A stretch of DNA of 64,000 bases. Origin: Cytophagaceae bacterium (GTDB taxonomy: Bacteria; Bacteroidota; Bacteroidia; Cytophagales; Cytophagaceae). This document shows positions 6,616-53,066 of this stretch, in pieces. The stretch lies in assembly GCA_025455005.1 (NCBI GenBank), contig JALONH010000013.1:1-64000 (forward strand), read 5' to 3'. The notes under the pieces are model-generated. The model searched no databases. It was not told the DNA's origin and saw only the letters and a list, made by a program, of their open reading frames with translations. The translations under genes were made by a program, and so were the position numbers. Every line of letters begins with the position of its first letter. The first letter of the stretch is position 1.

Positions 6616-7092
6616 ATGAAACTGTGGTGGCTGTATATCCTATTGTTTACCGGGCATTCAACGGAGGTGTCGACCAAACAACAAGCAGTCCGTATCCTCT
6701 TTTTTGTAGATGCACATTGTCCTATAGCACAATATTATCTACCTGTTGTAGCGGCATTCCAACAAAACTATCCTACCCGAACAGTTCAAGTAGACATTAT
6801 AAGCCGAGACCCTAAAGCACACTTTACCCAACCCATCCACTTGCCCTTTCAACATAAAGCGGCGAAGTCGCTTATCGATGCGTATGCTATAGAAACTATT
6901 CCTCAAGTTGTGGTGCTGGACTCCATGTCCCAAGTTCTATACCGAGGCCTTTGGGACGATCAAGTAAAACAACTGGGCGTGTACCAATCCAAGGTACACC
7001 ATGCGTATGTAGATTCGACCGTCAACGCCTACTTAACCGGTAAACCCATTCCTTATTCCTTTACCAACGCCATCGGATGTCAGATACGATAA
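6616..7092 (+). CDS. Thioredoxin-like protein of a cytochrome/monooxygenase operon
   Basis: 158 residues with a short N-terminal hydrophobic segment, so probably periplasmic. FFVDAHCPIAQYYLPVVAAF resembles the CPxxQ active-site region of redoxins; only one cysteine of the usual CxxC remains. IPQVVVLD is the cis-proline strand region. The ending (YRGLWDDQ ... AYLTGKPIPYSFTNAIGCQI) is shared with thioredoxin-like proteins that neighbour haem c/copper monooxygenase genes. It sits one base after the peroxidase gene and its TAA overlaps the next ATG, so translation is probably coupled. The single catalytic cysteine argues for a peroxiredoxin-like or carrier role. Confidence 0.65.
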   Translation: MKLWWLYILLFTGHSTEVSTKQQAVRILFFVDAHCPIAQYYLPVVAAFQQNYPTRTVQVDIISRDPKAHFTQPIHLPFQHKAAKSLIDAYAIETIPQVVVLDSMSQVLYRGLWDDQVKQLGVYQSKVHHAYVDSTVNAYLTGKPIPYSFTNAIGCQIR

Positions 7093-8390: not shown

Positions 8391-8558
8391 AGTTTAAAGT
8401 TCAAAGTTTAAAGTGTGAACATACCTACACCGTTTTATACACTTTCTTTAATTTTCACGTAAATAGTACATCCGGTCTTTAATTGACTAGACTTAACGCG
8501 GTCGAAACATTTCCTTAATACCTCCCGCGTACATTCGTATCAGATAAACTATACGAAT
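8391..8558. other. Intergenic stretch without recognised gene
   Basis: Starts with a short direct repeat (AGTTTAAAGTTCAAAGTTTA) directly after the monooxygenase stop. No conserved frame, hairpin with T-run, or RNA gene seen. Together with the small ORF that follows it makes up the 329-base gap before the GNAT gene. Confidence 0.5.
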
Positions 8559-8699
8559 ATGTACTCCATCTATTCGTTTGAACATTTAACGGTTTCCGGA
8601 AGTACTCTTCTAAAAAAAGCACCGCTTCGATTAAAATTACGGTGTTTCGTATTCCTACTATTAATAGGAGTATACATCAGTGTGATAGGAATGAAATAA
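8559..8699 (+). CDS. Possible 46-residue membrane protein
   Basis: ATG at 8559 to TAA at 8699. The product begins MYSIYSFEHLTVSGSTLL, has a basic stretch (KKAPLRLKLR) and then a hydrophobic helix (FVFLLLIGVYISVIGM), a plausible single-pass inside-positive membrane peptide. No homologue comes to mind and no clear promoter or ribosome binding site is visible, so it may be a chance frame. Confidence 0.3.
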   Translation: MYSIYSFEHLTVSGSTLLKKAPLRLKLRCFVFLLLIGVYISVIGMK

Positions 8700-8719
8700 A
8701 AAAAAGTTGGAACGGTCAA

Positions 8720-9226
8720 CTAAGAACGGTCAACATGTATTCCTTCTACCTTTTTATCCAGAAACAAGGCTTTACCGGCTGCAGGATCCAATTCATAACT
8801 ATTAAATCCTAAAGAAAAATAAAGACCAAGAGCAACAGCATTGTTTTCTAATACTTCCAACGTTAATTTACAACAACCTAGATCTTTAGCTTGATTCTCC
8901 GCTGCTCGCATTAATTGTTTAGCTATTCCCTTACCTCTATATTCAGGATGAACCAATAGATCATGTATATTCAGTAAAGGAGCAGCATTAAATGTAGAAT
9001 ACCCTAAAAACGAATTCAAAAGACCAACCGGTAGTTTGTTTTCGTCGTAAGCCAGAAAAGAATAGGCAATAGGAGAGGATTGTAAATCTGTATATAATTT
9101 TTGTTGTAGACGCGCATCAATAGGGTTACCACCACCCATCAAATCTGTAGCGTACATATTTAATAATTTCCAAAAATCGATTTGGTGTTGGGGAGATGAA
9201 AAATCAACCGGAGTTATGTAAATCAT
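8720..9226 (-). CDS. GNAT family N-acetyltransferase
   Basis: 168 residues, standard GNAT length. The acetyl-CoA binding motif A is VHPEYRGKGIAKQLMRAAE (R/Q-x-x-G-x-G/A), preceded by the LLNIHDLLV strand and followed by CCKLTLEVLENNAVALGLYF, the usual motif B. It transfers an acetyl group from acetyl-CoA to an unidentified amine. Its ATG overlaps the mtaB stop by four bases, so the two are translationally coupled. A direct repeat of TTGACCGTTC straddles the stop codon, a minor local duplication. Confidence 0.85.
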   Translation of the reverse strand: MIYITPVDFSSPQHQIDFWKLLNMYATDLMGGGNPIDARLQQKLYTDLQSSPIAYSFLAYDENKLPVGLLNSFLGYSTFNAAPLLNIHDLLVHPEYRGKGIAKQLMRAAENQAKDLGCCKLTLEVLENNAVALGLYFSLGFNSYELDPAAGKALFLDKKVEGIHVDRS

Positions 9227-10557
9227 AGAGTAATAGTCGGAACAACGTCCAATACAGGGATAATGTCAACACAACCGTTTGAAGCTATTTGTTTTAACAC
9301 AACCGGCTTCAATTCATTTACCCATAAGGGATCGTAAGGAGCTGAAACCTTTATATAATTATCTGTAAAGCCAAACATCAGACCGTTTTCTTGATCCGCT
9401 TCCCAAAGGACCTTGCGGGTAGAATTTAAGTGTTGTTGGTAAAAATAGTGGCGTTTTTTTTCCGACAAAGTACGTAACATGGTATTACGCTCGCTGCGCA
9501 CCGCATTCGGAACCCGCTCTTTCCACTCTGCCGCCAAGGTATTTTCCCGTTCAGAATAGGTGAACACGTGAAAGTAGGATACGTCTAATTCATTTAAAAA
9601 CGAGTACGTTTCCATAAAATCCTCTGCTGTTTCGCCGGGAAACCCAACAATCACATCCACTCCAATACAAGCATGGGGCATATAGTTTCGAATGGTTTGT
9701 ACCCGTTCCGCATACAACTCCCGAACGTATCGGCGACGCATGGCTTTTAATTGTTTATTATTTCCCGACTGTAACGGAATATGAAAATGAGGGACAAACT
9801 TTTTGGACTGCGCCACAAAGGCAATTATCTCGTCGGACAACAAATTCGGTTCTATAGAAGAAATTCGAAAACGATCTATTCCTTCCACCGTATCCAGCGC
9901 TTGGATTAAGTCGACAAAACGCTCTTTTCGTTCACCGTTTTGAATACCAAAATCACCTATATTGACACCGGTCAACACAATTTCTTTTACCTCTTGTGCA
10001 GCGATTTCTTTTGCTGTTTGGACCACCCGATCGATACTGTCACTACGACTATTTCCCCTAGCTAAAGGGATAGTACAAAAGGAACAAGAATAATCGCATC
10101 CATCTTGGACTTTCAAAAACGTACGGGTACGGTCGTTGACCGAATACGAACAGTAATAATCCGTAGCTGCTTCAATAGGAGAGTTGTAAATGGTAGCTCG
10201 ATGAGCAGTCGTTTTTTCAAAACGCTCGATCAATTCAAAGAGTTTAAACTTTTCCGCAGCACCCAGAACAGCATCCACACCCGGTATAGCCGCTATTTCC
10301 TCCGGTTTTAACTGTGCGTAACAACCAATAATACCAATAAAAGCAGAAGGAGAATGTTTTAATGCTTCACGAACTACCTTTTTACATTTTTTATCTGCGT
10401 GGTCTGTTACCGAACAAGTATTAATAATATATACATCCGCCGGTTCATGAAACTCCACCTTCTCAAAACCCTGTTCCAAAAACATCCGACCAATAGTGGA
10501 CGTTTCAGAAAAGTTGAGTTTACAACCTAGAGTATAGAAGGCGACTTTTTTAGACAT
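9223..10557 (-). CDS. mtaB: tRNA t6A37 methylthiotransferase MtaB
   Basis: 444 residues, correct length for the MiaB/MtaB/RimO methylthiotransferases. N-terminal UPF0004 domain with Cys12, Cys48 and Cys79 for the auxiliary 4Fe-4S cluster; radical-SAM cluster CDYSCSFC (Cys154, Cys158, Cys161); C-terminal TRAM region. VDVIVGFPGET and the substrate loop fit MtaB rather than RimO. It converts t6A37 to ms2t6A37 in tRNAs reading ANN codons. First gene of a two-gene unit with the GNAT gene. Confidence 0.88.
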   Translation of the reverse strand: MSKKVAFYTLGCKLNFSETSTIGRMFLEQGFEKVEFHEPADVYIINTCSVTDHADKKCKKVVREALKHSPSAFIGIIGCYAQLKPEEIAAIPGVDAVLGAAEKFKLFELIERFEKTTAHRATIYNSPIEAATDYYCSYSVNDRTRTFLKVQDGCDYSCSFCTIPLARGNSRSDSIDRVVQTAKEIAAQEVKEIVLTGVNIGDFGIQNGERKERFVDLIQALDTVEGIDRFRISSIEPNLLSDEIIAFVAQSKKFVPHFHIPLQSGNNKQLKAMRRRYVRELYAERVQTIRNYMPHACIGVDVIVGFPGETAEDFMETYSFLNELDVSYFHVFTYSERENTLAAEWKERVPNAVRSERNTMLRTLSEKKRHYFYQQHLNSTRKVLWEADQENGLMFGFTDNYIKVSAPYDPLWVNELKPVVLKQIASNGCVDIIPVLDVVPTITL

Positions 10558-40743: not shown

Positions 40744-41442
40744 CTACGCCATTAATCTCTCTAATTTCATTTTCCATTTTTCCCAGTCTTTCATTTCCTT
40801 AGTCTGTAAATCTATAAATTTCTGCGTATGGTCGTGATGTATTAAATGACAAAGTTCATGAATTATAACATATTCAATACATCCTTTGGGTGCTTTAATC
40901 AATTCAGGATTTAAAATGATTTTTCCTTTTGGTGTGCAACTTCCCCAACGTGTCGGCATGTCACGCAACACAATAGAACTTGGTTCAACTTTATACTTTT
41001 TGAATTTGTCAATTAATGGTTCTGCTATTGCATGAAACTTTGTGCGTGCATGTTGTAAATACCAATTGTCTAGTAAGTCCTTTACTCTTGATTTATCATG
41101 AGTTGTTACTTCAATGAATTTGCCTTTAAATTTTACTGTTTCTTCTTTGCCAATTTGAATTTGTAAACGATACTGTCTACCTAAATATAAATGAGTTTCA
41201 CCACTTATGTATTTTCGTTTTGGTGTCTTTGGTTGAAAGGAAAGAAAGAAGCTTTGTTGTTTTATTATCCAAGGTGCTTTTTTTCTAATTTTCTCTTTTA
41301 CTTTTTCTATGGATGTGTCTGTCGGTGCTTTTACCAACACTTCCATTTCAGGTGTAACTGTAATGCCAAGCGATTTTCTGTCTGAATACTCCAAACGAAA
41401 ATCTATTGTTCTACTTCCAAATTGTATAGCTGCTGTCATCAC
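40744..41442 (-). CDS. YgjP-like zinc metallopeptidase (M48/SprT-like) linked to type I RM
   Basis: 232 residues. Zinc motif HELCHLIHHDH: His195-Glu196-x-x-His199 with His205 downstream. MPTRWGSCTPKGKIILN is the strongly conserved strand/loop of the YgjP family. These predicted metallopeptidases are often encoded next to hsdR; a role in turnover of the restriction complex has been supposed but not shown to my knowledge. Its start overlaps the hsdR stop by four bases (41439-41442), so the two are translationally coupled. Confidence 0.88.
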   Translation of the reverse strand: MMTAAIQFGSRTIDFRLEYSDRKSLGITVTPEMEVLVKAPTDTSIEKVKEKIRKKAPWIIKQQSFFLSFQPKTPKRKYISGETHLYLGRQYRLQIQIGKEETVKFKGKFIEVTTHDKSRVKDLLDNWYLQHARTKFHAIAEPLIDKFKKYKVEPSSIVLRDMPTRWGSCTPKGKIILNPELIKAPKGCIEYVIIHELCHLIHHDHTQKFIDLQTKEMKDWEKWKMKLERLMA

Positions 41443-44400
41443 TTGTAACGGATTTTAGCTACTTCAATACAATCTTCGGCAATCTTATCCATGTCTTTAA
41501 ACGACAAGTTCACATTGTATTTGTCACGTACTTCATCTATTAGATAGTCGCCAATTTCAATCAGTAACTTTCCTGTAATGTTTGTTTTGTATTGCCAGTC
41601 AATAATGGGTTTACTGTTGTCTAAAACAGAATTTTGAATCAGGTCGTCAATTTGTAAAGCTGTTTGTGTTGTGACTTCTTTAAAAACTATATTATCTTGA
41701 ATTTTCTCAGACAATGCTTCAACTGTCAAGCCATAAAAGGCTTTGGCAACATCTCTGTCTTTCAATTGCTCTGGAATATCGTTGTCGGTATGAGCTAAAA
41801 CATTGTTCATGATATCTTGAACTCTACTCAGGTATTGTGCCTCACTGATTCGTTTTGCTTCATAGTCTGCAATGGTTTCTTTCAGCATTTGTGAAAACTT
41901 CTTGTAAAAAGCGGGGTCTTCATCCATTTTTTCGGTGATGTGCTTTGCAGTTCTACTCGCAATCTTGTCTGCCTTAGCAACTTTTCCAGTGGTATTTTCT
42001 ACTTCTTGCTGAAATTTATCTTTGTCGAAAATGTTTACCAATTCTGTGATGGTTTCAATTTTTTCGGTAGTGATGTGTGTGTCAATTAATTTTTGAATCT
42101 GCCCTTCATATTGTTTGTAGTCAATTTCATCACTGTATCTTTCCACTACTGCTAAACGGAGTTTCAGGAACATGGTCAAATCTTCTTTGTAACGATTTAT
42201 TACTTTTTCTTCTACATCTTTATGGAATTGAATAGAAGATAAAGCTAACTTCAAACCTTTGGCAAAGGCAGCCAGTTTATCGTAAAACAGAACTCTTATT
42301 GCTTCATCTTTCAATAATTGCTGATAGGCTTCCGCATCTCGTTTGTTGGCTATAGTTTTGAAAATATCCCAAAGGTCTGAATGCTTTTGTGGTAGTTTTT
42401 TAACTTCCTCTGAAATATTGGTAAGCGTCCCCTCCAAATCTTCTTCGTCAAAATCTTCTATTGAAGAATACATCTGTAAAGCATCATCCAAATTTTCAAT
42501 CACACCGTAGTAGTCAATTATATAACCAAATTCTTTGTCAGGATAAATGCGGTTTACCCTAGCAATGGCTTGTAGGAGTTTGTGACTCTGTAAATTTCTA
42601 GTGAGATATAAAACTGTGTTTTTAGGTTCATCAAATCCCGTAAGCAATTTATCAACTACAATGATGATTTCAGGATCTTTTTGATTCTTAAAACGATTGA
42701 TGATGTTCTTTTCATAGCTTTTAGAGTTTCCATGTTCATCCATCATTTTTTTCCAAAACTGATTTTCCTTTTCGGTTGACTTTTCATAAGCACTTTCTTC
42801 GCCTTCTCTCTCATCTATTGAAGATATTAGTACTTCGCTGCTTACTATGCCAATTTCATCCAGATACTCTTTGTATTTAATGGCATTCAATTTTTTATCG
42901 CATACCAACTGTCCTTTAAAGGGTGTTTTTCCTTGCCAATTATCTCGAAAATGATAGCTGATATCCCAAGCAATCATTCTCATTGTTTGCTCTGCTGAGT
43001 TCAAATGATCTGTTCGGGCAAACTTTTTCTTTATGTCTGCTTTTTGATATTCAGTTAATGGTTCTGAAACCATTCCGAAGAACTTATCAATCGGACTGGC
43101 GTTTACATCCTGTATAGCCAAACGTCCTTCATAAAGCAAGGGAACTACGGCTTTATCTTTAACCGCCTGATCAACAGTATATGCATCAATTACTCCTCCA
43201 AATTTTTCGGCTGTACTTTTATCTCTCTTAAAAAGAGGAGTACCTGTCATAGCAATGAAACATGCATTGGGCAATGTCTTTTGCATATCAATATTAAAAG
43301 TTCCATGCTGTGTTCGGTGACCTTCATCTACCAATACAAATATGTCGTAGCTTTCTAAGGGCTTACTGATTTTCTTTACAGCTGCCACAAATTTATTTAT
43401 AATGGTGGTTACCACTGCATCACTTTTGCTTTCCAGCAATTCTACTAATCGTTGTCCAGTGGTGGCATTTTCAACAAATCTTCCACACTTTCGAAATGTA
43501 CCTGTAATCTGATTGTCCAAATCGGTACGGTCTGTCACTAACACAATTTTGGGATTGCGAATGCTCGGCTCCATGGCAATAGCTTGTGCTAACATCACCA
43601 TCGTCAAAGACTTTCCACTTCCTTGTGTATGCCAGATGACACCTCCTTTTCGTTTTCCATTTTCAACTTTTTTTATGCGTTGTATGGATTTTTTAATGGC
43701 AAAAAACTGTTGATAGCGTGCTACTTTCTTTTCTCCATTATCGAACAAAATAAAATTGAAAACAATGTCCATCAATCGTTCAGGTCTGCATAAGCCATAC
43801 AAATAAATGTCCTGTTCGGTTGGAAGAATTTCTTCCAGTTCCAAAGAATCAAAGTATTGTCGAACGTATTTGAAGCGGTCAGAAAACAATTGTTCTTTTA
43901 TAGAAATCGGAAGCGGCTTGTTTTTGAGTTTCAGTAATTTGTTTTTGTAGTTGCGTTCATCTTCATCGGTGCTGAATTTCTCTTGCCACTTTGCCCAAAA
44001 TTTTTCGGGTGTTGCATTAGTAGCGTATACCGCTTCTTGTGTGGCAATGCTCAAAGTGAGTTGCGAATACACATACAAGCTTCTAATACCATCCTCTTGC
44101 TGATTACGCAAATGCTGACTGATGGCCTGCTTTAAGGACTCCCTCATATCAGGTCGCTTGCACTCGATGATACATATTGGAATACCATTTACAAATAACA
44201 CCAAATCTGGTCGGTAATGCTCTTTGCTTGTGCTACGCATTACACTGTATTCTTCTGTTACATGAAACACATTGTTACTGATGTTTTTCCAGTCAATGTA
44301 TTGCAGGGTAAAACTCTTCTTGTCCCCATCTACACTTTGCTCCAATGCCTGACCCAATGTGAGCAGGTTGTATGCCTTTTCACTGGCTGCAATGTAGCCC

Positions 44401-44669
44401 TCATTCATGGGCAGATTCTTTAAAATCTGTATCCCATTCTCTATATTTGAATCGCTTATGTAAGTCGATTTCGTTGAACTTATCGTTTTTTCAGCATTAA
44501 TTTCCTTCAACTGTTTCCTTAAAACATCTTCTAACAATACATTAGATGTTTTTCCACCTCTTTGCCTGTCTGCTTCTGCCGGACTCAAATACGTATAGCC
44601 TAAATTCACCAACATTTGTAATGCTGGAATCTGGCTGATATGATCTTCTTTAAAACTTGGTGTGTCCAT
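41439..44669 (-). CDS. hsdR: Type I restriction endonuclease subunit R
   Basis: 1076 residues, normal for HsdR. N-terminal PD-(D/E)xK nuclease: Pro154-Asp155 in HYRPDLVLFV and Glu169-x-Lys171 in CIIECKRPD. SF2 translocase: Walker A HTQGSGKS at 347-354, Walker B-like FVLVDEGHRTQHG, motif III AMTGTPLF, and motif VI region QAIARVNRIYPDK. C-terminal helical part binds the methylase. It cuts unmethylated DNA after ATP-driven translocation. Unlike the other subunits it is separated from its upstream neighbour by 204 bases containing a palindrome just upstream of its ATG, so it may have its own promoter. Confidence 0.95.
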   Translation of the reverse strand: MDTPSFKEDHISQIPALQMLVNLGYTYLSPAEADRQRGGKTSNVLLEDVLRKQLKEINAEKTISSTKSTYISDSNIENGIQILKNLPMNEGYIAASEKAYNLLTLGQALEQSVDGDKKSFTLQYIDWKNISNNVFHVTEEYSVMRSTSKEHYRPDLVLFVNGIPICIIECKRPDMRESLKQAISQHLRNQQEDGIRSLYVYSQLTLSIATQEAVYATNATPEKFWAKWQEKFSTDEDERNYKNKLLKLKNKPLPISIKEQLFSDRFKYVRQYFDSLELEEILPTEQDIYLYGLCRPERLMDIVFNFILFDNGEKKVARYQQFFAIKKSIQRIKKVENGKRKGGVIWHTQGSGKSLTMVMLAQAIAMEPSIRNPKIVLVTDRTDLDNQITGTFRKCGRFVENATTGQRLVELLESKSDAVVTTIINKFVAAVKKISKPLESYDIFVLVDEGHRTQHGTFNIDMQKTLPNACFIAMTGTPLFKRDKSTAEKFGGVIDAYTVDQAVKDKAVVPLLYEGRLAIQDVNASPIDKFFGMVSEPLTEYQKADIKKKFARTDHLNSAEQTMRMIAWDISYHFRDNWQGKTPFKGQLVCDKKLNAIKYKEYLDEIGIVSSEVLISSIDEREGEESAYEKSTEKENQFWKKMMDEHGNSKSYEKNIINRFKNQKDPEIIIVVDKLLTGFDEPKNTVLYLTRNLQSHKLLQAIARVNRIYPDKEFGYIIDYYGVIENLDDALQMYSSIEDFDEEDLEGTLTNISEEVKKLPQKHSDLWDIFKTIANKRDAEAYQQLLKDEAIRVLFYDKLAAFAKGLKLALSSIQFHKDVEEKVINRYKEDLTMFLKLRLAVVERYSDEIDYKQYEGQIQKLIDTHITTEKIETITELVNIFDKDKFQQEVENTTGKVAKADKIASRTAKHITEKMDEDPAFYKKFSQMLKETIADYEAKRISEAQYLSRVQDIMNNVLAHTDNDIPEQLKDRDVAKAFYGLTVEALSEKIQDNIVFKEVTTQTALQIDDLIQNSVLDNSKPIIDWQYKTNITGKLLIEIGDYLIDEVRDKYNVNLSFKDMDKIAEDCIEVAKIRYK

Positions 44670-44691: not shown

Positions 44692-44724
44692 CATATATAG
44701 AAAAGTGCGATTTTCTATACATAT
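44692..44724. promoter_or_regulatory. Palindrome upstream of hsdR, candidate operator
   Basis: ATATATAG-AAAA-GTGCGA-TTTT-CTATACAT: imperfect inverted repeat 23 bases upstream of the hsdR start codon. The same sequence type recurs at 44851-44882 at the end of the upstream fic gene. The winged helix in that Fic protein makes it a candidate binder. Confidence 0.5.
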
Positions 44725-44836
44725 CCTCTTACTCATTTATAGTTTTCGCCCTTTTTCTGTATATGAAACTATTTCTTAAGCGAAATTTTGCTTTCTTTTA
44801 ATTTTGTAGACTTGCTACTCAAATAATTTACTATAT

Positions 44837-44882
44837 ACATGTTCCAAAAACATGTATAGCAAAAGTCGTTTTTCTATACATG
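44837..44882. promoter_or_regulatory. Two overlapping palindromes at the 3' end of fic
   Basis: ACATGTT (44837-44843) with AACATGT (44849-44855), and CATGTATAG (44851-44859) with CTATACATG (44874-44882). The second contains the fic stop codon in one arm and closely resembles the palindrome at 44692-44724 (shared core TATAG-AAAA-TTTT-CTATA). Could be a terminator for the upstream genes, an operator, or both. Confidence 0.5.
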
Positions 44883-45959
44883 TTTTATCTGATTTACGTT
44901 CGACAATAGGTTATACAGGTCGGTATTGATGTAATAATTATCCCTACCCAGCTTCATCTTTTGCACAATTCCAATCTGGTCGAGCTCGTCTAAATACTTG
45001 GTAGCGGTCAGCCGACTTACATCCAAATCAGACATAATGAAATCAATTTTGGTATAAGGGTGCTTAAACAGGTTGTTGATTAAATCCTGACTGTAAAACT
45101 TGGTATTCTCCCTAATTTTCTTCTTATGTTTTAGCATCAGGTTCTTTATGCCTTCAATGATTTTAATGGTTTGCAAAGAAGTCTGTTCTACTCCATCAAG
45201 GATATACAGAACCCATTCTTCCCAAGCGTTTTCGGTGCGAACTTTTTGGAGCAAGCGGTAGTAATCCGCTTTGTTTTGATTGATGTAGCGACTTAAATAC
45301 AGAATAGGCAAATTCAACATGCCTTCTTTTACCAAATAGAGGATATTAATAATTCTCCCCGTTCTGCCATTACCATCATAAAAAGGGTGGATGCTTTCAA
45401 ACTGATGGTGGATAATAGCCATTTTGACTAGCGGATCCCAATCGCTGAGTTCATTGATATTGATAAACCGTTCCAGATTGCTCATGAGTGCCTGCACTTC
45501 ATCATAGGTTTGAGGTGGGGTGTACACAATCTCACCCGTTTGCTCATTTTTCAATTCTGTACCGGGTACTTTTCTAAAACCGGCATCATTTTCTTCTAGT
45601 GTTGCCTGCATCTGGACGATGTGGTTGTTTGTCAATATCCCCTGTTGACGCACTGTTTCAAAACCCCAACGCAATGCCTCTGCATAGTTGTGTACTTCTT
45701 TGGATGCAATAGATTTAAACTCCCTTTTCAGATAATCGCCCTGATACAATTCATCATGTGTGGTGATGATATTTTCAATAGCAGAACTGTCTTTGGCTTC
45801 TTGTAGAGAAAGTGAACTAATAAGAATGCTTTGATTTGGTATACTCAGTGCAGCACCTTTCAACTCGGCCAATGCACTTCGAGCTGCAGCCGTTTTTTTC
45901 ATGATGGCTTTGGATTCTATATCGAAATCCAAAGGGAGGTGGGGTATTTTATATGCCAT
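44874..45959 (-). CDS. Fic family protein with C-terminal winged helix
   Basis: ATG 45959 (MAYKIPHLPLDFD) is preferred to GTG 45995; 361 residues. Fic core motif HPFYDGNGR at 191-199, all residues for AMP transfer present. The inhibitory motif (S/T)xxxE(N/G) is seen as Ser58-SAI-Glu62-Asn63 ahead of the core, so this is an autoinhibited class II Fic. Residues about 295-361 (HPYTKIDFIMSDLDVSRLTA ... DQIGIVQKMKLGRDNYYI) are a winged helix-turn-helix. Expected to AMPylate a cytoplasmic target. It lies between the CBASS genes and hsdR; palindromes follow it. Confidence 0.9.
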   Translation of the reverse strand: MAYKIPHLPLDFDIESKAIMKKTAAARSALAELKGAALSIPNQSILISSLSLQEAKDSSAIENIITTHDELYQGDYLKREFKSIASKEVHNYAEALRWGFETVRQQGILTNNHIVQMQATLEENDAGFRKVPGTELKNEQTGEIVYTPPQTYDEVQALMSNLERFININELSDWDPLVKMAIIHHQFESIHPFYDGNGRTGRIINILYLVKEGMLNLPILYLSRYINQNKADYYRLLQKVRTENAWEEWVLYILDGVEQTSLQTIKIIEGIKNLMLKHKKKIRENTKFYSQDLINNLFKHPYTKIDFIMSDLDVSRLTATKYLDELDQIGIVQKMKLGRDNYYINTDLYNLLSNVNQIKHV

Positions 45960-46018
45960 ATCAGTATAGTAGTTTTTCACAATAAATCCAGCCACTTTAT
46001 TGTGCAGATTTTGCTTTA

Positions 46019-46258
46019 TTATCTCTTTTTATCCTTTGGCGGATTGGGATCATTTCCATAACTGTTTGGGTTATGAATCTTTCCATCTTTCCCGTGTGGA
46101 ATCAATTCAGATTTTTCCTGTTTTGCTTTTTCTCGGCTCCAGTCCATGGCTTCCTTTTTGGTTACAAAATGCTTGGATGCTCTTTCTGCATTTTCTCTTT
46201 TTGAATCCCAACCACTTTTTTCGGAATTGGGAACTACATGTCTTTCTTTGCGTGGCAT
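46019..46258 (-). CDS. DUF2188 small protein
   Basis: 79 residues, very basic and hydrophilic. RHVVPNSEKSGWDSKRENAE, then ASKHFVTKKEAMDWSREKAK and SELIPHGKDGKIHNPNSYGN follow the DUF2188 pattern (HVVP..-GW-, T..EA, ..L.IHGRDG.I). Function unknown. Five bases separate it from the SLATT gene, so it belongs to the same transcript. Its conserved partner could be either the CBASS pair or the following Fic gene. Confidence 0.85.
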   Translation of the reverse strand: MPRKERHVVPNSEKSGWDSKRENAERASKHFVTKKEAMDWSREKAKQEKSELIPHGKDGKIHNPNSYGNDPNPPKDKKR

Positions 46259-46263
46259 AGGAT

Positions 46264-46821
46264 TTATTTAATTTTTCTTAAGCTTTCAGGTAAAAATTTA
46301 TCAATCTCTTCATCAGAAAATGTGAATTCTTCATTTTCCTTCAGTGCTTTAGACGCAATTTGATATGCTTTATTTATTGTTTTGGGAGCACCTCTATAGG
46401 TATTTACAAGACGAGCATTTAGTTCGTCTCTCTTTGTTTGAAAATGTTCAATTGGATTATTACCGATTTTAATATCCACTAATAGAGATAAAAATTCTTC
46501 TCTAATCTCCAAAACATCAAGTGCAGCTTGTTTATGTTTTTCAGCCAGAGCTAAAAGGTTAAAATCTTTTGAATACAATGTTAGACAAAGGAGTGCTGTC
46601 GAGAAAAGAGCAGCCAAAAATTGAAATAAACATCCATCACCAAAGATTATAACCAAGATACTTGTTGTAGTTAACCCAGACAAAAGTATCTCTGTTATTT
46701 TAAGGCCATCACTCCTTTTTTTAAGCAGATCAGCACATTCCTCATGTGTTTTGTGTGTATAAACAACCCTTCCATAAATTTCTCTTATTTGAGATTCTAT
46801 CATTTTTTCTTGCTCGCTCAT
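46264..46821 (-). CDS. SLATT domain two-TM effector (CBASS)
   Basis: 185 residues. IREIYGRVVYTHKTHEECAD is the SLATT family signature, followed by two adjacent transmembrane helices (about 42-60 and 65-83) and a long cytosolic helical tail (LALAEKHKQAALDVLEIREE). SLATT proteins are proposed pore-forming effectors that damage the inner membrane when a cyclic nucleotide signal arrives. It is encoded 14 bases downstream of the CD-NTase, the standard cyclase-effector order of a two-gene CBASS. No Cap2/Cap3-type ancillary genes are present. Confidence 0.88.
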   Translation of the reverse strand: MSEQEKMIESQIREIYGRVVYTHKTHEECADLLKKRSDGLKITEILLSGLTTTSILVIIFGDGCLFQFLAALFSTALLCLTLYSKDFNLLALAEKHKQAALDVLEIREEFLSLLVDIKIGNNPIEHFQTKRDELNARLVNTYRGAPKTINKAYQIASKALKENEEFTFSDEEIDKFLPESLRKIK

Positions 46822-46835
46822 GATTCCTTTTTTTA

Positions 46836-48137
46836 CTATTCTGATATTGGAACATCAATTATATCTCTTGCAACAACTACATTATTTTTAACTATATAGC
46901 ACTCTACAAAGTGACTGCCTTTAAAATTTGTACTTTCTTTTCTTTCCTTATAACCAAAATCATCTAAAATCTGACCACGTAGACAATCTCTCTTAATTGC
47001 CTGTTCGCCTCTATTTGTTACTTTCCATTTTACATCATACGGTGGTGGTACATCAATTCTTTCAATGTAAAATCTTAATGATTTGTTCGGCAACAATCTG
47101 ATCTTTTTTAATAGATATTCTCTCAGTGAACCTTCACGAAATCCACTTTGCTTTATATCACAATCTATTTTCAAATCATACTTAATATCAACTCGGTAGT
47201 ATGATTCAATAAATTCTTCAGTGTTTCTATAGCTTTCATTTATAGCCTTGTCCTCATTTTCTTTATTCTCATATTTAGGGAAATCTTTTCCAAATATGTC
47301 CCTCCATTTGTTATGTTTTATTCTATCAGAAGTTCCATCAATTGCTTCAATTGCTAAATCGTATGCTTTCTTAGCTTTCCTTTTGAATGATTTTTTAACC
47401 TTAACTCTTTGTTTACTTCCCAAAGCCCAATATTCTTTTTGTTCCTTTGGTTGGTCATATAAATATTTGAAAAAATCCCTGCACATTTCATCGTAACTGC
47501 TAAAGCTTGTAATATCATAAACATTAGTTGATTTCAAAAAATTATACGCTAAAGTATCTATTAATAGTCCTCCAATGTAAACACCATGCTTATTCTTCCA
47601 TGCTCTGGCCATTTTACAAAGTCGTCTAAGATTTTTATTCTTATTATCTTCAAATTCAACCATCGCATCCATTTCCTTTCTTGGCTTTGTAGTTTTCCAA
47701 GTACCATCTCCATAAGTATCGGGATATTTATAATCTTGATCATCTATTTCAAATACTGGTTGAACATCTATGTGTGCTTCTGTAAAATTAACAGTTACAA
47801 CACATCTATCCACTTTGATGTCCGAACTTGGATAAGTATTGGATATTGCTGATTTTGTATCTTGCAACAATTTCGTTTGACCTCCTGCTATATTATAGAC
47901 CTCCCATTTTGAAGCTGGCAAAATAAAAATCATATCTAAATCAGAAATCCCATTAATACCAGTGTACCTGCCGTAAGATCCAACTTGTAGACTATTAGCT
48001 GTTTTTGAATCAGTATCACGAAACTCTTGATTTAATGATTTGGTAATACGTTCATATCGATATGATATATCCTCAGCTTTTTCATCACTAATCTTTATAT
48101 TAGTTAGAAATTCTTTAAATATTTCTGATGTATTCAT
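46836..48137 (-). CDS. CD-NTase (SMODS nucleotidyltransferase) with AGS-C-like sensor domain
   Basis: 433 residues. Nucleotidyltransferase core: GSYGR at 53-57, catalytic Asp66 and Asp68 in SDLDMIF, third Asp124 in HIDVQPVFE. An all-helical OAS1-like middle region follows. Residues about 320-430 resemble the AGS-C sensor domain: YDVKWKVTNRGEQAI, LRGQILDD, ESTNFKGSHFVECYIVKNNV. CD-NTases make cyclic di- or trinucleotides upon phage infection; the AGS-C domain is supposed to sense a nucleotide or other ligand. Signal chemistry cannot be deduced. It lies 11 bases after hsdS and 14 before the SLATT gene, in one operon. Confidence 0.92.
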   Translation of the reverse strand: MNTSEIFKEFLTNIKISDEKAEDISYRYERITKSLNQEFRDTDSKTANSLQVGSYGRYTGINGISDLDMIFILPASKWEVYNIAGGQTKLLQDTKSAISNTYPSSDIKVDRCVVTVNFTEAHIDVQPVFEIDDQDYKYPDTYGDGTWKTTKPRKEMDAMVEFEDNKNKNLRRLCKMARAWKNKHGVYIGGLLIDTLAYNFLKSTNVYDITSFSSYDEMCRDFFKYLYDQPKEQKEYWALGSKQRVKVKKSFKRKAKKAYDLAIEAIDGTSDRIKHNKWRDIFGKDFPKYENKENEDKAINESYRNTEEFIESYYRVDIKYDLKIDCDIKQSGFREGSLREYLLKKIRLLPNKSLRFYIERIDVPPPYDVKWKVTNRGEQAIKRDCLRGQILDDFGYKERKESTNFKGSHFVECYIVKNNVVVARDIIDVPISE

Positions 48138-48148
48138 AGAGTCGCTAA

Positions 48149-49375
48149 TTATTTAATTTTCAGCCTCACCTTCCCCGTTAACAAAACCTGCATCAACCCC
48201 TTCTTCTGCTCCCTCAGCTTCTCTGCTTTGGTTTTGAGCAGGCTGATTTCTTTATCTGCCGCTTGCAGTACTTGGGCAATGGTAATTTGTTCTTCTTTGC
48301 TTCTTGGAAGCTTTATTGGTATTTCAAGAAGCTGTTTCTCCGAAAGTTCCTTTTGTCCAGTGCCTCCCATAAAGTCTTCGATTCTTTGATAATTAGAAGG
48401 GTATTGCAGATAAAATAAAATGTAGTTTAATGAGAAGGTACTACTTACAATAAAGCTTGAAATTGCGTTAGAACAAATATGACCATCAAATTCATTTGTG
48501 ACTAACCCAATACCACCATTATGAATATTCTGTCTGCCTATCAATATTTCTCCTTTATTTCTTTCGTAATATGGTCTTCCAGTACTTGAAATTATTGGCT
48601 TATCACGTTCATTAAATTCAATTCCCTTTGTATGAAGTTTTACAGTTAATAATTTCTGATTATTAATTTTTAAAATGGCTTTCTTTTCAGGGATAATCCC
48701 AATTTCTTTCATTTTAAGAATTACCCATTTTTCACTAAACCCCTTCAACCTTTTCTTTCCTGTAAGCAATTGCTGCATGAGCCATTTTTTGCGGAGTTCT
48801 TTTTGGGCGATGAGTTTTTCGGTGGTGTGGATGGCGGCATCTGCCGTGCTCAGCACTTGGGCAATTGCTTTTTGTTCGGGTAGTGGCGGGAGGGGAATTT
48901 TAAATTCTTTTAAATCACTTCCGTTTATTGAGTTAATGGTTGCACCAAGATTTTTATGTATTTCTCGATTATATATATCTGTATTGAAAACGTGAATTAA
49001 GTATTCGTTGTAATCTCCTCTGTAAATTGCCATAAATGCACCAAAAGCTTTTCCCTGAGCATCCTCATTTATCATGGCACATTTTCCAATTAAAGATTTA
49101 CTCCCATTTCTAACACAAATTAAAATATCATTCTTTTTAACTGGATTAAAATCACCTGCTCTAACTTTTACAAATACATTGTCATCAAAGGTTATACGGC
49201 CTCCCTGAACATTAGAAGAACGTAATACAAGCACTCCGGTTTCTTCACAAATATCATCAGGGCTGTAGGTGAGACCTGAAAATATATTTCCTAGCTTCCC
49301 GAGTTTCTTCACTTCCCAATCGCTTGGAATTTCAGTATTGTAAAACGTCTTATTTTTTTTTGTTTTAGGCATCAT
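48149..49375 (-). CDS. hsdS: Type I restriction-modification specificity subunit S
   Basis: 408 residues with two target recognition domains, each followed by a conserved coiled-coil spacer: PLPPLPEQKAIAQVLSTADA with KKWLMQQLLTGKKRL after TRD1 (about residue 200), and SKEEQITIAQVLQAADKEIS with KGLMQVLLTGKVRL after TRD2. It determines the bipartite target sequence for methylation and cleavage; the site cannot be predicted from sequence. It lies 57 bases after the first fic gene and 11 before the CD-NTase gene. Two start ATGs are adjacent (49375, 49372). Confidence 0.93.
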   Translation of the reverse strand: MMPKTKKNKTFYNTEIPSDWEVKKLGKLGNIFSGLTYSPDDICEETGVLVLRSSNVQGGRITFDDNVFVKVRAGDFNPVKKNDILICVRNGSKSLIGKCAMINEDAQGKAFGAFMAIYRGDYNEYLIHVFNTDIYNREIHKNLGATINSINGSDLKEFKIPLPPLPEQKAIAQVLSTADAAIHTTEKLIAQKELRKKWLMQQLLTGKKRLKGFSEKWVILKMKEIGIIPEKKAILKINNQKLLTVKLHTKGIEFNERDKPIISSTGRPYYERNKGEILIGRQNIHNGGIGLVTNEFDGHICSNAISSFIVSSTFSLNYILFYLQYPSNYQRIEDFMGGTGQKELSEKQLLEIPIKLPRSKEEQITIAQVLQAADKEISLLKTKAEKLREQKKGLMQVLLTGKVRLKIK

Positions 49376-49432
49376 TTACATGATTAAATTGACTGCACGA
49401 TAATTTTTTGACTCTTATGATTACTCATACTT

Positions 49433-50827
49433 TCATCGTAAACCATTTTTCTTTGTATAAAAATCTATATGATCATATATGGCATTAGTAAGCTTGCCTA
49501 CTATATCTGTCATTTCACCTTCTGTAATAGGTTTATGGAGCAGTCTTTCAAATAATTTAGTTTGCACCCTTTGGCTACCTTCTGTGAATTCATCCACAAA
49601 TACTTCGTATTTTATCTGGTCAAACTTAATTTCGAAACTATAATTACAGCCAAACGTTTTTAAGCCTCCTTTTATCAATGTACCATAAGATGTATAGAAA
49701 GTAAATATGACATCATGAAGACGGAAATTAGACGTATTGTTTTCAAATCCGGTAATTAATTTTTCAAATACCTCATCGGCAGTTTCATTGACAAATTGTA
49801 CATAAACACCAAAATTATTTAAACTTATATGATGCCTTGTTCCATTGAAAAACTTGTTGAACTTTTGAATTTCCGGTATAGATTTTTTAATCAAATCATA
49901 CATCCAAGTATTCAATTTTTCAGAAAGGTATTCCTTACTGAATTGAACTTTTACTTCTTCATTCGGATCAACCGATTCTAATTCTTTTTCAAGTAAAGCA
50001 ATCTTCTTATCCAGATCACCAGGCTCGTCAATGGGCTTACCTTCTAGGGCATCTAAAATAATTTTTTGAGAATCTATAATTCGCTCTCCTATAAATTGAT
50101 AAAAAAGATTTGGCATACCGTCATAAACCTGTATATCTGCCAATAACTGATAATAACTTTTCTTAACTTCCTCTTTAATAATAATAACAGGATAGCCACA
50201 TGCTAATAAGAGGATATTAGTTAAAATACGAGCTGTTCTTCCATTACCATCATAAAATGGATGAATTAATAAATAATCATTGTGAAACTGGCTAATCATT
50301 TCTATAGGATGTTGTTCTGCTTCACCTTTAAAAAATTTATCCAGATAAGCATTTGTTCTATTGAGAAGACTATGAATTTCCTCTGCTACTTTACCGGGTG
50401 AAGTAAATTCGATTTTCTCGTTCCTGTAATTGATAATTTCGTTAGGATACGATTTCCAATTTCCAATTTCCTTTACTTTATCAGGATCCTCTTCATGCAT
50501 AATAGCCTTATGAATATCTTTAATTCTTTTTTCAGATATTCGATCGGCTCCATTACTCATTTTCAAGACTTCAAGAACTATTTTGTCATGTCCGTTCATT
50601 TCTGTAACGTCTTTGAAAGGCTTACCTTTAACATCTATGTTACCTACCATGACACTTCGAGTTTCTTCTCTTGTAAGAGTTCCACCCTCCATTCGATTGG
50701 AATAGTAATTCCAATCCAAACGAAGTTTATAGTTAATCTTTTTTAAAACATCATCACTGAATTTACCATATGAGGATATTTTATTTTGATTATCCTCAAT
50801 TCTTTTTAGTATTTCTTCTAATCTCAT
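49433..50827 (-). CDS. Fic family protein inside the type I RM operon
   Basis: 464 residues. Fic core motif HPFYDGNGR at 189-197. N-terminal inhibitory helix with Ser43-NRM-Glu47-Gly48 (motif (S/T)xxxE(G/N)), so class II autoinhibited. The C-terminal ~200 residues (after LLEKELESVDPNEEV) are a separate alpha/beta region without helix-turn-helix that I cannot name. Predicted AMP transferase. Inserted between hsdM and hsdS, with 17 bases after hsdM, hence co-expressed with the methylase. It shares the Fic core but little else with the second Fic protein at 44874-45959. Confidence 0.9.
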   Translation of the reverse strand: MRLEEILKRIEDNQNKISSYGKFSDDVLKKINYKLRLDWNYYSNRMEGGTLTREETRSVMVGNIDVKGKPFKDVTEMNGHDKIVLEVLKMSNGADRISEKRIKDIHKAIMHEEDPDKVKEIGNWKSYPNEIINYRNEKIEFTSPGKVAEEIHSLLNRTNAYLDKFFKGEAEQHPIEMISQFHNDYLLIHPFYDGNGRTARILTNILLLACGYPVIIIKEEVKKSYYQLLADIQVYDGMPNLFYQFIGERIIDSQKIILDALEGKPIDEPGDLDKKIALLEKELESVDPNEEVKVQFSKEYLSEKLNTWMYDLIKKSIPEIQKFNKFFNGTRHHISLNNFGVYVQFVNETADEVFEKLITGFENNTSNFRLHDVIFTFYTSYGTLIKGGLKTFGCNYSFEIKFDQIKYEVFVDEFTEGSQRVQTKLFERLLHKPITEGEMTDIVGKLTNAIYDHIDFYTKKNGLR

Positions 50828-50844
50828 AACATGTTCGTTAAAAA

Positions 50845-52404
50845 TTATCTCATTAATTCTTTTAGGTATTTATCCATTTCAGCCTGCACCGTTTTTAGTT
50901 CACCTTCCAGTTGCTCAATCTCCTTTTGCACAGCAGTAATATCCACTTCGGCTTCTTCTTCAAAGGTGTCCACATAGCGGGGGATGTTCAGGTTGTAGTC
51001 GTTCTCCTGTATTACTTCGGGAGTGGCTACATAGCTGTATTTGTCTTCCACCACACCGGTTTGTAGTTTTCCGGCTGTAAAATCACGGTAGGTTATTACA
51101 ATGTGTTCAATATCGCTTTCACGCAGTTTGTTTTGGTTTTTGGCACTTTCGTAGTGTTTGCTGGCATCAATAAACAATATATTGTTGCTGCTTTTTTGCT
51201 TGTTAAACACCAAGATGGCAGCTGGTATACCCGTACCAAAAAACAGGTTGGCTGGCAAACCAATCACCGCTTCCAGTAAGTTTTCTTCAATTGTTTTCTG
51301 TCTTATTTTTCCTTCGCTGCTGCCACGGAACAATACACCGTGTGGTACAACTACTCCCGCTTTGCCATCCTCGTTCAGTGTTTCAATCATGTGGCTGATA
51401 AAAGCCCAGTCACCTTTGCTCTTAGGAGGAACACCTCTCCAAAAGCGGTTGTATTTATCGCTTTCAGGGTCGTAGCTCACGGTAGTTTTTTCACCATCCT
51501 TATCTTCTACCTTTCCCCATTTGTCTAATGAGAAAGGTGGGTTTGCTACTACTGTATCAAACTTCATTAAGGTATCGCCTTCTTTAAGTTTAGGGTTGCG
51601 AATGGTATCCCCCCAACGAATGATGGCATTGTCAAATCCATGTAAAAACATGTTCATCACAGCCAGTGCCCATGTACTTCCGTTGGCTTCTTGTCCATAG
51701 AGTGAGAAATTATCTGAACCCACTTCTTCACCTGCTTTAATTAATAATGAACCAGAACCACAGGTAGGATCACAAATTCTAGATCCCGGTTTAGATTGCG
51801 TGATTTTGGCTAAAAGTGTAGATACTTCACCTGGGGTATAAAATTCTCCTGCCTTCTTACCTGCATCACTGGCAAAATTGGATATCAAATACTCATAGGC
51901 TCCACCAATGATATCATTTCCTTCTAAATGAGAAGGTCTTAGATCAAGTGCTTCTTTATTAAAATCAAGCAATAGATTTCTTAAGCGAGTGTTTTTATCT
52001 TTAGGCTCTCCAAGTTTACTGGTATTAAAATCTATGTTTTGGAAAATACCTGCGCCATCTTCGCTGTAAAGTTTTTCTCGATTAGCTTCTTCTAAATCAT
52101 TCAAAGCTATGTTAATTAGTTCACCTATATTTGACTCATTGCGGTGGTCAAATAAATACTTGAAATGACTGTGCTCCGGAACAATAAAACGTTCGTGTTG
52201 CATGGCACGTTTCGCGCGTTCCACATCTCCGTTGTATTTAGCTAAGTAGCCTTCCATTTTATCGTCATGCACATCACTGAGATATTTCAGGAACAGCATG
52301 GTAAGCACATAGTCTTTGTACACGCTTGGGTCAATGCTACCTCTAAAGGTGTCACAAGCTTTCCATACAGCGTCGTTGATGTCTTTCTGAGTTATTTTAG
52401 CCAT
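50845..52404 (-). CDS. hsdM: Type I restriction-modification methyltransferase subunit M
   Basis: 519 residues. N-terminal HsdM_N helices (DINDAVWKACDTFRGSIDPS), SAM-binding motif DPTCGSGS at 212-219 and catalytic NPPF at 288-291, which indicates N6-adenine methylation. C-terminal coiled coil (VQKEIEQLEGELKTVQAEMD) contacts HsdS. With HsdS it methylates host DNA; with HsdR it restricts. Four bases after the half-size HsdS gene, so tightly coupled to it. Confidence 0.95.
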   Translation of the reverse strand: MAKITQKDINDAVWKACDTFRGSIDPSVYKDYVLTMLFLKYLSDVHDDKMEGYLAKYNGDVERAKRAMQHERFIVPEHSHFKYLFDHRNESNIGELINIALNDLEEANREKLYSEDGAGIFQNIDFNTSKLGEPKDKNTRLRNLLLDFNKEALDLRPSHLEGNDIIGGAYEYLISNFASDAGKKAGEFYTPGEVSTLLAKITQSKPGSRICDPTCGSGSLLIKAGEEVGSDNFSLYGQEANGSTWALAVMNMFLHGFDNAIIRWGDTIRNPKLKEGDTLMKFDTVVANPPFSLDKWGKVEDKDGEKTTVSYDPESDKYNRFWRGVPPKSKGDWAFISHMIETLNEDGKAGVVVPHGVLFRGSSEGKIRQKTIEENLLEAVIGLPANLFFGTGIPAAILVFNKQKSSNNILFIDASKHYESAKNQNKLRESDIEHIVITYRDFTAGKLQTGVVEDKYSYVATPEVIQENDYNLNIPRYVDTFEEEAEVDITAVQKEIEQLEGELKTVQAEMDKYLKELMR

Positions 52405-52408
52405 GATA

Positions 52409-52966
52409 TTATTTTATAGCGTTAATTATTTGTTGTTGAATTTGTTTTTCTCTTAGAAGTTCAATTTGAATCTTCAAGGATTTTTCCTTGTTGCGGAGTT
52501 TTGAAATTTCTACGATTGTCATTTGCATTTTAATTTCCGGAATTGTTATTTCCAGATTTTCTAAAACCTGTTTTGAGATAGAAGGAATAGAAGTTCCGAT
52601 TGCTTGTCCTTTTAGAAGAGTTTGGGTGGTATGATTATTTAGAAACCAAGCCAAATATTGTGGTAACACATATTTGTCAACTGATCTTATTACAAAGAAG
52701 GAAGTGGAAGCTACAGAAGGTTCGTTGTGATTTTCAAAAACTGTAGCAAAGTTTTTGCTTCCTTTAGCTGCAAATAAAACATCACCATTTTGCAATAAAT
52801 GCTTTTTAGGCACTTCATCTAGTTGTAAATCAGGGTATAATTCTTTATATAATTGACCATTTTCGTCAAAATGTTTGGATTGCAAATATACCAGATCACC
52901 ATCGCCAGATGGTTTGGCAAAAAGTCCTGTTTGAATGTTTGCAATATCTTTTATTAGCTTTTTCAA
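52409..52966 (-). CDS. Half-size HsdS-like specificity protein (single TRD)
   Basis: 185 residues: one target recognition domain (IANIQTGLFAKPSGDGDLVY ... FENHNEPSVASTSFFVIRSV) followed by one spacer helix (LEITIPEIKMQMTIVEISKL, EKSLKIQIELLREKQIQQQI). Full-length HsdS has two of each. Half-S proteins can dimerise into a functional specificity subunit recognising a palindromic site, so it could give HsdM a second specificity; alternatively it is a regulator. It is the first gene of the operon, four bases before hsdM, and has an intact start and stop, so it is not simply a fragment. Confidence 0.8.
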   Translation of the reverse strand: MKKLIKDIANIQTGLFAKPSGDGDLVYLQSKHFDENGQLYKELYPDLQLDEVPKKHLLQNGDVLFAAKGSKNFATVFENHNEPSVASTSFFVIRSVDKYVLPQYLAWFLNNHTTQTLLKGQAIGTSIPSISKQVLENLEITIPEIKMQMTIVEISKLRNKEKSLKIQIELLREKQIQQQIINAIK

Positions 52967-52990
52967 ATTTATTCTCTTGTAATTGTTCTA

Positions 52991-53021
52991 CAAAAATAGA
53001 TTATTGAAATTAAAGTAACAA
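52991..53021 (-). promoter_or_regulatory. Promoter of the defence operon
   Basis: On the minus strand TTG (53021-53019), a 19-21 base spacer, and TATTTTTG (52998-52991), matching the Bacteroidota consensus TTG-N20-TAnnTTTG. It lies 25 bases upstream of the start codon of the half-HsdS gene. Confidence 0.6.
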
Positions 53022-53050
53022 GAGGAATTTAAATTATTTTCTAGTAGAAT

Positions 53051-53066
53051 ATCTACAAATGTAGAT
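53051..53066. promoter_or_regulatory. Palindrome ATCTAC/GTAGAT upstream of the defence promoter
   Basis: Perfect 6-base arms around AAAT. On the minus strand its centre reads TACATTTG, a second match to TAnnTTTG, so it may be an alternative promoter or an operator. Nothing else is seen in 52967-53190. Confidence 0.4.

Follow-up and report, generated by a model that had tools for sequence, protein, structure and literature searches.

The 64-kb stretch of Cytophagaceae DNA analysed here (hereafter the window), which lies in a draft genome of 2.94 Mb, carries a type I restriction–modification (RM) operon on its minus strand, with further defence genes placed between its hsd genes at short distances. 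This operon, the family of loci to which it belongs, and the putative regulatory role of its first gene, a short hsdS relative that we call half-hsdS (protein half-S), are the subject of this study. In transcription order the genes are half-hsdS, hsdM, ficA, hsdS, a CD-NTase gene, a SLATT gene, a DUF2188 gene, ficB, hsdR, and a gene for a YgjP peptidase. The gaps between them measure 4, 17, 57, 11, 14, 5, and 23 nt up to ficB, followed by 204 nt between ficB and hsdR. A first-pass annotation, prepared from the letters alone, had given this order together with gaps of 4–59 nt up to the second fic gene; the order and coordinates hold for all genes, their identities are backed by the agreement of Pfam, PADLOC, and NCBIfam scans, and the gap range is essentially right (4–57 nt as computed). 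Scans of the 64-kb window for tRNA genes and Rfam families gave no matches.

The RM genes comprise half-hsdS (52409..52966; 185 aa, TTG start codon, Methylase_S), hsdM (50845..52404; N6_Mtase and HsdM_N), a full-length hsdS (48149..49375; Methylase_S in two target recognition stretches), and hsdR (41439..44669; HSDR_N and SWI2_SNF2), all on the minus strand, as is the YgjP-like metallopeptidase gene that follows (40744..41442). Catalytic motifs are intact in HsdM (NPPF and DPTCGSG) and in HsdR (GSGKS, DEGH, and D...ECK), and together with an HsdS of two target recognition domains (TRDs) these give the locus the sequence hallmarks of a type I RM system.

Two positions in the operon hold what we refer to as cargo. 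Slot 1, between hsdM and hsdS, is occupied by ficA (49433..50827, minus strand; Fic), and slot 2, between hsdS and hsdR, holds four genes on the same strand: the CD-NTase gene (46836..48137; SMODS and AGS_C, PADLOC PDLC00796), the gene for a SLATT_4 membrane effector with a hydrophobic stretch (46264..46821), the DUF2188 gene (46019..46258; PADLOC candidate PDC-S16), and the SoFic-like ficB (44874..45995; Fic_N, Fic, and a C-terminal SoFic_C). The CD-NTase motifs GS..DLD and IDVQP, the latter being the third acidic motif, are intact, and the effector gene lies 14 nt 3' of the cyclase gene, as expected of a two-gene cyclic oligonucleotide-based antiphage signalling system (CBASS). In embedded relatives the SLATT gene likewise adjoins the cyclase gene, in the Methylomonas locus L059 as judged by clustering with the SLATT gene of L063. 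Class II Fic AMP transferases are defined by the motif HxFx(D/E)GN(G/K)RxxR together with an N-terminal (S/T)xxxE(G/N); both Fic proteins have an intact Fic motif (HPFYDGNGRTAR and HPFYDGNGRTGR) as well as an inhibitory-type S-x-x-x-E-G/N motif, which places them in this class. Both Fic types and DUF2188 are represented in the PDC families of PADLOC. Beyond residue ~275, FicA has no Pfam match, and its C-terminal part is possibly an undescribed domain.

The embedded CBASS pair and the frame that carries it

A search of genome contigs for CD-NTase relatives returned ten loci, and in six of them (L002–L007, all Bacteroidota) the CD-NTase and SLATT genes lie between hsdS and hsdR, as they do in the window, where the gene positions bear out the first-pass placement of the cyclase–effector pair inside the RM operon. 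Half-S and hsdM come first in five of the six; the remaining one, L002, lies on a contig that begins inside hsdM. In all, 12 embedded loci were found, in Bacteroidota (the window, L002–L007, L025, and L085), Pseudomonadota (L059 Methylomonas and L062 Aeromonas), and Campylobacterota (L063 Arcobacter). Because the gene order recurs in three phyla it does not reflect chance, and the proviso of the first-pass annotation that the arrangement might be unique to this genome falls away. Except in L006 and L025, where other genes intervene, the distance from the hsdS stop to the CD-NTase start is −4 to 16 nt; this holds for 10 of the 12 loci, again across three phyla, and such spacing argues for the co-expression of the pair that the annotation had suggested. 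In L027 the pair also follows hsdS, after a 66-nt gap, at the end of an RM operon with a different gene order.

The same pair is found outside RM operons as well. Among 21 non-Bacteroidota records (L008, L009, L059–L068, and L100–L108), three are embedded (L059, L062, and L063) and 18 carry the pair free of hsd genes; the pair is also free-standing in the Bacteroidota locus L026, and no hsd relative was found near the CD-NTase gene of the distant Bacteroidota L028 and L029. A phage collection searched at E 1e-30 held no CD-NTase relative, viral contigs lying outside this search. In a CD-NTase tree of 33 rows (L027 scored as embedded; L010, L011, and L029 left out), 5 changes to or from the embedded state are required, well-supported branches forcing at least 4 of them, and a single clade of the embedded rows (13, with L027) was rejected (approximately unbiased test, p 2.9e-5). 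On an hsdR tree of 62 rows, built with a quick method and including two plasmid rows with long branches, the presence of the CBASS pair needs at least 8 changes, and the label is somewhat clustered (12 of 500 shuffles were as low). The two trees therefore indicate that the pair has entered or left RM operons repeatedly and that it moves between frames in Bacteroidota.

The surrounding frame is itself recurrent. With HsdR as the anchor, searches gave matches in 32 of 395 genomes from the phylum (E 1e-120) and in 28 of 390 from the order (E 1e-150). Besides the window, 55 hsdR-anchored loci were taken, which are all the distinct matches but G244 and G828, both cut by contig ends (L080 was dropped as lying on the same contig as L003). 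Across Bacteroidota these loci repeat the order half-S, hsdM, slot 1, hsdS, slot 2, hsdR, ygjP: of the 44 loci with an hsdM gene, 40 have half-S in front of it; cargo fills slot 2 in 42 of the 46 loci in which that slot is resolved and slot 1 in 27 of 42; and 46 of 55 loci have a ygjP relative. Several of the missing frame genes reflect contig ends, and loci cut by a contig end are excluded from the slot counts. Across the 64 loci that were tabulated, counting the window, 225 open reading frames (ORFs) that do not belong to the frame lie in its gaps and fall into 107 clusters; ORF calling was mechanical, such that some unnamed cargo ORFs may be spurious. Scans of cluster representatives identified, among others, Bro-N proteins (21 loci), Schlafen/AlbA_2 proteins (10 loci), ficA-type Fic proteins (10 loci with the window), patatin with a DncV-like cyclase (4 loci), SAVED with CD-NTase, AGS_C proteins, one of them with Guanylate_cyc, and also Piwi, KAP and AAA ATPases, a protein kinase, and DUF3800, while many representatives have no Pfam match. 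Much of the Pfam-named cargo belongs to families familiar from defence systems. The SAVED, patatin, and AGS_C combinations represent cyclic-nucleotide systems other than the window's pair in these slots.

Several of these cassettes may be described individually. Patatin and DncV-like cyclase genes occupy slot 2 in L086 (10340–13761, hsdR oriented plus), L089, L037, and L083, and L086 has two genes in the DncV-like cyclase cluster. An AGS_C protein with a Guanylate_cyc match is encoded between hsdS and hsdR in L097 (12205–13542) and resembles a Pycsar-type cyclase. In L005, a Piwi-domain protein of 761 aa and a 299-aa partner (6889–10061) are encoded between the SLATT gene and hsdR, a position that would put CBASS and a possible short Argonaute in one slot.

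Fic genes are optional in the frame. Besides the window, 9 of the tabulated loci have a ficA-type gene, which may lie in slot 1 or slot 2, and 3 have a ficB-type gene, which lies in slot 2; L025 is the only one of these that also has this CBASS pair. The first-pass annotation had proposed a layered system in which restriction, CBASS, and AMPylation are wired together, and such a fixed three-part system is not supported: Fic is optional, the pair is exchanged with at least 8 changes on the hsdR tree, and the close frames of L076 and L030, with HsdR 89–91% identical to that of the window, hold other cargo. These comparisons point to a cargo platform instead, and wiring between the cargos would not be required to account for them.

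One explanation for this pattern is hitch-hiking, in which the hsdS–hsdR gap is a recombination hotspot at which genes such as those for CBASS and Fic are stably carried and transferred along, without being functionally coupled to restriction. The tight joining of the CD-NTase gene to hsdS in 10 of 12 embedded loci from three phyla suggests selection for co-expression instead, and much of the Pfam-named cargo comes from the presumed defence families mentioned above. On the other side stand the very diverse cargo in the same slots, the hsd-free pairs outside Bacteroidota and in L026, the repeated changes on the hsdR tree, and a study of Escherichia coli that names the hsdS–hsdR site a potential recombination hotspot (PMC12255303; this and the other articles cited are drawn on in excerpt). 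We consider hitch-hiking somewhat unlikely.

Half-S and the paired sites before its gene

Half-S has the features of an HsdS-short protein, being a single-TRD HsdS that is encoded 5' of hsdM and is better conserved than the long HsdS. In the 23 pairs with HsdR identities of 80–90%, HsdM has a median identity of 86%, half-S one of 63%, and HsdS one of 37%. A structural model of half-S (predicted local distance difference test score 74.7, with a weak stretch at 14–52) matched in Foldseek the Esub1 structures 8vsq and 8vsr first, which are known by their entry title, 'Prx with Esub1', and then the S subunits of RM systems; our literature search found no paper naming Esub1. Controller (C) proteins of RM systems are small helix-turn-helix proteins, and half-S departs from this definition, as Methylase_S is its sole Pfam match and the model suggests an HsdS/Esub1-like fold. 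It does share one trait with C proteins, namely paired operator-like candidate sites before its own gene.

These candidate sites are two copies of the symmetric bipartite word GTA-N7-TAC on the minus strand, a distal one (GTAGATATTCTAC, 53044..53056) and a proximal one (GTAGAACAATTAC, 52979..52991) that starts 25 nt 5' of the half-hsdS start and 65 nt from the distal copy; paired copies occur in related loci too. Upon enumeration of 24,576 bipartite words over half-S promoters, GTA-N7-TAC ranked first for the loci around the window (group A, 14 loci assembled after the sites were seen), with two copies in 14 of 14 loci against 0.37 sites expected from shuffles; the sites mostly start near −25 and −80 to −100, and L031 has its two copies upstream given its corrected start. 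In ten new half-S loci from a separate search, for which the expectation was set beforehand, two copies were present in 7 and at least one in all 10 (0.3 sites expected). The same enumeration gave the word GAA-N6-TAC for group B, with two copies in 7 of the 9 loci from which it was found and in 9 of 11 once one start is corrected and the set is enlarged by L125 and L132, chosen for having the word; these two were the only ones with paired GAA-N6-TAC among 11 more distant new loci, a few of which had other paired words. Little cross-occurrence was observed, with GAA-N6-TAC in 0 of 24 group A loci and one GTA-N7-TAC in 11 group B loci. Two carriers of the frame with this CBASS pair, Mariniradius saccharolyticus AK6 and Pedobacter sp. 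Hv1, are of the GTA-N7-TAC and the GAA-N6-TAC type, respectively. GTA-N6-TAC occurs twice in each of L090–L092, and another paired word, of CAGCAAAC...CTG type, lies upstream of a distant half-S type in L124 and L126.

Paired sites also accompany half-S outside Bacteroidota. From 38 plasmid records with a half-S relative, 8 were taken, seven alphaproteobacterial and one from Bacteroides. The alphaproteobacterial loci, whose half-S is ~30% identical, have paired sites in 7 of 7, around TTGAC, where 0.19 sites are expected; four have two copies of GTA-N7-TAC and three have two copies of GTA-N8-TAC, a variant noticed after the fact. Of the GTA-N7-TAC pairs spaced 50–80 nt in 1.07 Mb of locus DNA without the window, 14 are at half-S promoters and one is elsewhere. 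In 19 Bacteroidota loci the spacer is 43% identical and the 39 nt beside the proximal site are 38% identical, and simple relatedness therefore fails to explain the sites. The full-length HsdS is an unlikely cause as well, since its recognition domains turn over while the sites persist; the type of the paired sites is associated with the type of half-S.

It could be argued that half-S is a working methyltransferase subunit, as proposed for the HsdS-short of Staphylococcus xylosus, or that it provides a second, symmetric specificity for GTA-N7-TAC, and that the promoter sites are incidental. GTA-N7-TAC is indeed over-represented in the window, with 29 occurrences against 15.2 expected and 1 of 100 shuffles as high, and the half-S model resembles both HsdS and Esub1; moreover, S. 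xylosus requires its short protein to methylate correctly (PMC10030836), and purification of the BlihIA complex brought down a half-S with it (PMC12429846). Incidental targets are nevertheless an unlikely source of promoter pairs in 14 of 14 (the post hoc set), 7 of 10, and 7 of 7 loci. We regard this reading, too, as somewhat unlikely, and regulator and subunit roles of half-S can coexist.

Scans for other promoter signals can be summarised briefly. The Bacteroidota promoter pattern TTTG-N18..22-TAnnTTTG has two matches in the window against 2.9 expected, one of which (52964–52994) overlaps the TTG start of half-S and does not assign the promoter position. A generic sigma-70 scan of the window was near chance (59 against 50.2 expected), and terminators numbered 10 against 7.8. 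The 204 nt before hsdR contain a strong palindrome and may contain a second promoter, and hsdR therefore need not share the transcript. A third GTA-N7-TAC site lies in this gap (GTAGCAAGTCTAC, 44806..44818, minus strand); of the 13 loci whose gap reaches 60 nt or more, 5 contain such a site, against 0.54 sites expected (L078 and L079, in which hsdR is broken, are excluded), a count that is suggestive only, because the window, L076, and L077 are close relatives.

Two AT-rich palindromic elements of ATGTATAG...CTATACAT type precede hsdR, at 44692–44722 and 44847–44886, and the latter (AAAACATGTATAG...CTATACATGTTTT, minus strand) extends over the end of ficB. Similar elements are found before hsdR in L030, L072, L076, and L077, with or without a fic gene. 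The idea that the SoFic-like FicB regulates hsdR through these palindromes was set aside, because L030 and L076 have them and lack ficB. In L004, L006, L007, and L078, short AT-rich repeats, possibly binding sites, lie between the last cargo gene and hsdR (e.g., GTTAGAACTT in L006); in L004, L006, and L007 that gene belongs to the Schlafen/AlbA_2 cluster.

Proposed autoregulation and comparison with known systems

On balance, we think that half-S probably autoregulates a conserved type I RM frame with exchangeable defence cargo, a reading that derives from comparison of sequences. The operon run would most likely be started from one promoter 5' of half-S, and half-S, as a single-TRD HsdS relative, would most likely dimerise on the two symmetric GTA-N7-TAC sites, alone or with HsdM, keeping the operon low through an autorepression that is possibly sensitive to methylation. 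Restriction would then provide the first line of defence, and the CBASS pair, expressed with HsdM and HsdS, a second, cell-sacrificing line against phages that escape restriction. Half-S would thereby take the place held elsewhere by RptR (PMC12255303) or by a WYL protein in L062, and a methylation role as in S. xylosus would be compatible with such autoregulation (PMC10030836). A further step, which we put forward tentatively and consider less probable than the autoregulation itself, is that a specificity subunit has turned transcription factor: half-S, perhaps as a dimer with HsdM, would read and maybe methylate its own promoter sites and so set expression of the cargo stack, and phages that inhibit RM or dilute methylation would switch the cargo on.

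Several observations weigh against autoregulation by half-S. The requirement of the S. xylosus short HsdS for correct methylation points to an enzymatic role (PMC10030836). No clear pair of like sites is present in 20 of 47 discovery loci (counting L006 and L007, which have one GAA-N6-TAC each), and no site pair was found in the Methylomonas locus L059 or in L141, a Bacteroides finegoldii plasmid locus. The group B word GAA-N6-TAC is asymmetric, which is awkward for a half-S homodimer. Site type tracks the phylogeny of the frame, and another frame-linked or host factor could therefore bind the sites. The paired pattern occurs 6 times in the whole genome against 4 times in a reversed control, and is thus not exclusive to the half-S promoter. 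The spacing of the two sites in Bacteroidota gives weak evidence of helical phasing (P about 0.03 on distinct distances); the alphaproteobacterial sites are spaced 57–59 and 63 nt apart, and phasing is not relied on.

Two further explanations fare less well. The complex of HsdM, HsdS, and HsdR might restrain the cargo, and phage anti-restriction proteins might release it; the conserved position beside hsdS would suit such a guard, as would the AAA_13 proteins among the cargo (one representative scanned), a family that we take to include PrrC and RloC. Many records have the same CD-NTase/SLATT pair with no RM genes beside it, the hsdS genes that it follows have diverged in their recognition domains, and Pfam shows no extra domain in the CD-NTase; a guard is therefore improbable here, despite the precedent of PrrC in EcoprrI (PMC3874168, PMC12707154). 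Half-S might also be a silent gene from which hsdS acquires recognition domains through recombination, a role that duplicated hsdS genes with inverted repeats have in phase-variable systems (PMC7394358). This is highly improbable here: no long half-S/hsdS repeat is among the repeat families listed, half-S scores about as well against other HsdS proteins as against its own (median local scores 67 and 70), and half-S is conserved while hsdS turns over.

Autoregulation by half-S would bear on an open question, namely how lethal second-line defences stay off and then switch on when the first line fails. The locus family offers many natural replicates, in which one frame with one conserved first gene carries CBASS, Pycsar-like, SAVED, patatin, Fic, or Piwi cargo, and many Bacteroidota, along with seven plasmids of alphaproteobacteria, have its promoter layout. 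Were the first gene to serve as the frame's own switch, this would explain how stacked defences are kept under a single control, with loss of restriction coupled to cell-sacrificing immunity. If half-S is such a switch, short HsdS genes of unknown function in staphylococci and Bacillus would gain a role, and the coupling of restriction to abortive infection would become directly testable.

That type I RM operons can contain defence genes is established (PMC12255303, PMC11411939, PMC12707154), as is the presence of intervening genes (PMC5183652). Genetically embedded defences were treated in a 2024 preprint by Payne et al. (as cited in PMC12255303 and PMC11411939) and the Campylobacter rlo and mlo genes by Miller et al. 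in 2005 (as cited in PMC5183652); our locus shares the principle that genes inside defence operons, including hsd operons, can be defence cargo, whereas the excerpts of the citing papers describe neither this CBASS subtype in an embedded position nor the half-S sites. The literature that we searched, mostly without subscription papers and preprints, yielded no report of this CBASS pair inside an hsd operon or of a half-HsdS regulating its own promoter. New here are the better conservation of half-S than of hsdS and the two bipartite sites in the half-S promoter.

The closest parallel is the DarTG2-RM operon of enteropathogenic E. coli, in which a defence pair also lies between hsdS and hsdR, an M48-family peptidase gene follows downstream, and a first-gene regulator is accompanied by repeated palindromic promoter sites; its cargo is a toxin–antitoxin pair rather than CBASS, its regulator is RptR rather than a half-HsdS, and the excerpt does not describe an hsdM–hsdS slot (PMC12255303). 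TgvAB, which has been shown to protect against phages, is likewise a two-gene second defence inside a type I RM operon, that of Vibrio cholerae VPI-2, but acts by GmrSD-like restriction and not by cyclic-nucleotide signalling, and half-S goes unmentioned in the excerpt (PMC11411939). The capK+capS loci similarly link a restriction operon with an immune operon such as CBASS, in nearly 20% of cases; there the immune operon lies downstream of RM and not inside it, under another regulator pair (PMC13373217). With respect to half-S, the hsdRSMS locus of S. xylosus has a short single-TRD HsdS beside a full HsdS, encoded directly 5' of hsdM, and its HsdS-short is conserved while its HsdS-long is variable (PMC10030836); BlihIA also has a half HsdS besides a full one (PMC12429846). 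In both systems, as excerpted, the half HsdS is treated as a subunit with an unknown or stabilising role, and promoter sites and cargo slots are not described, although the authors of the BlihIA study speculate on a regulatory hybrid dimer with the truncated HsdS (PMC10030836, PMC12429846).

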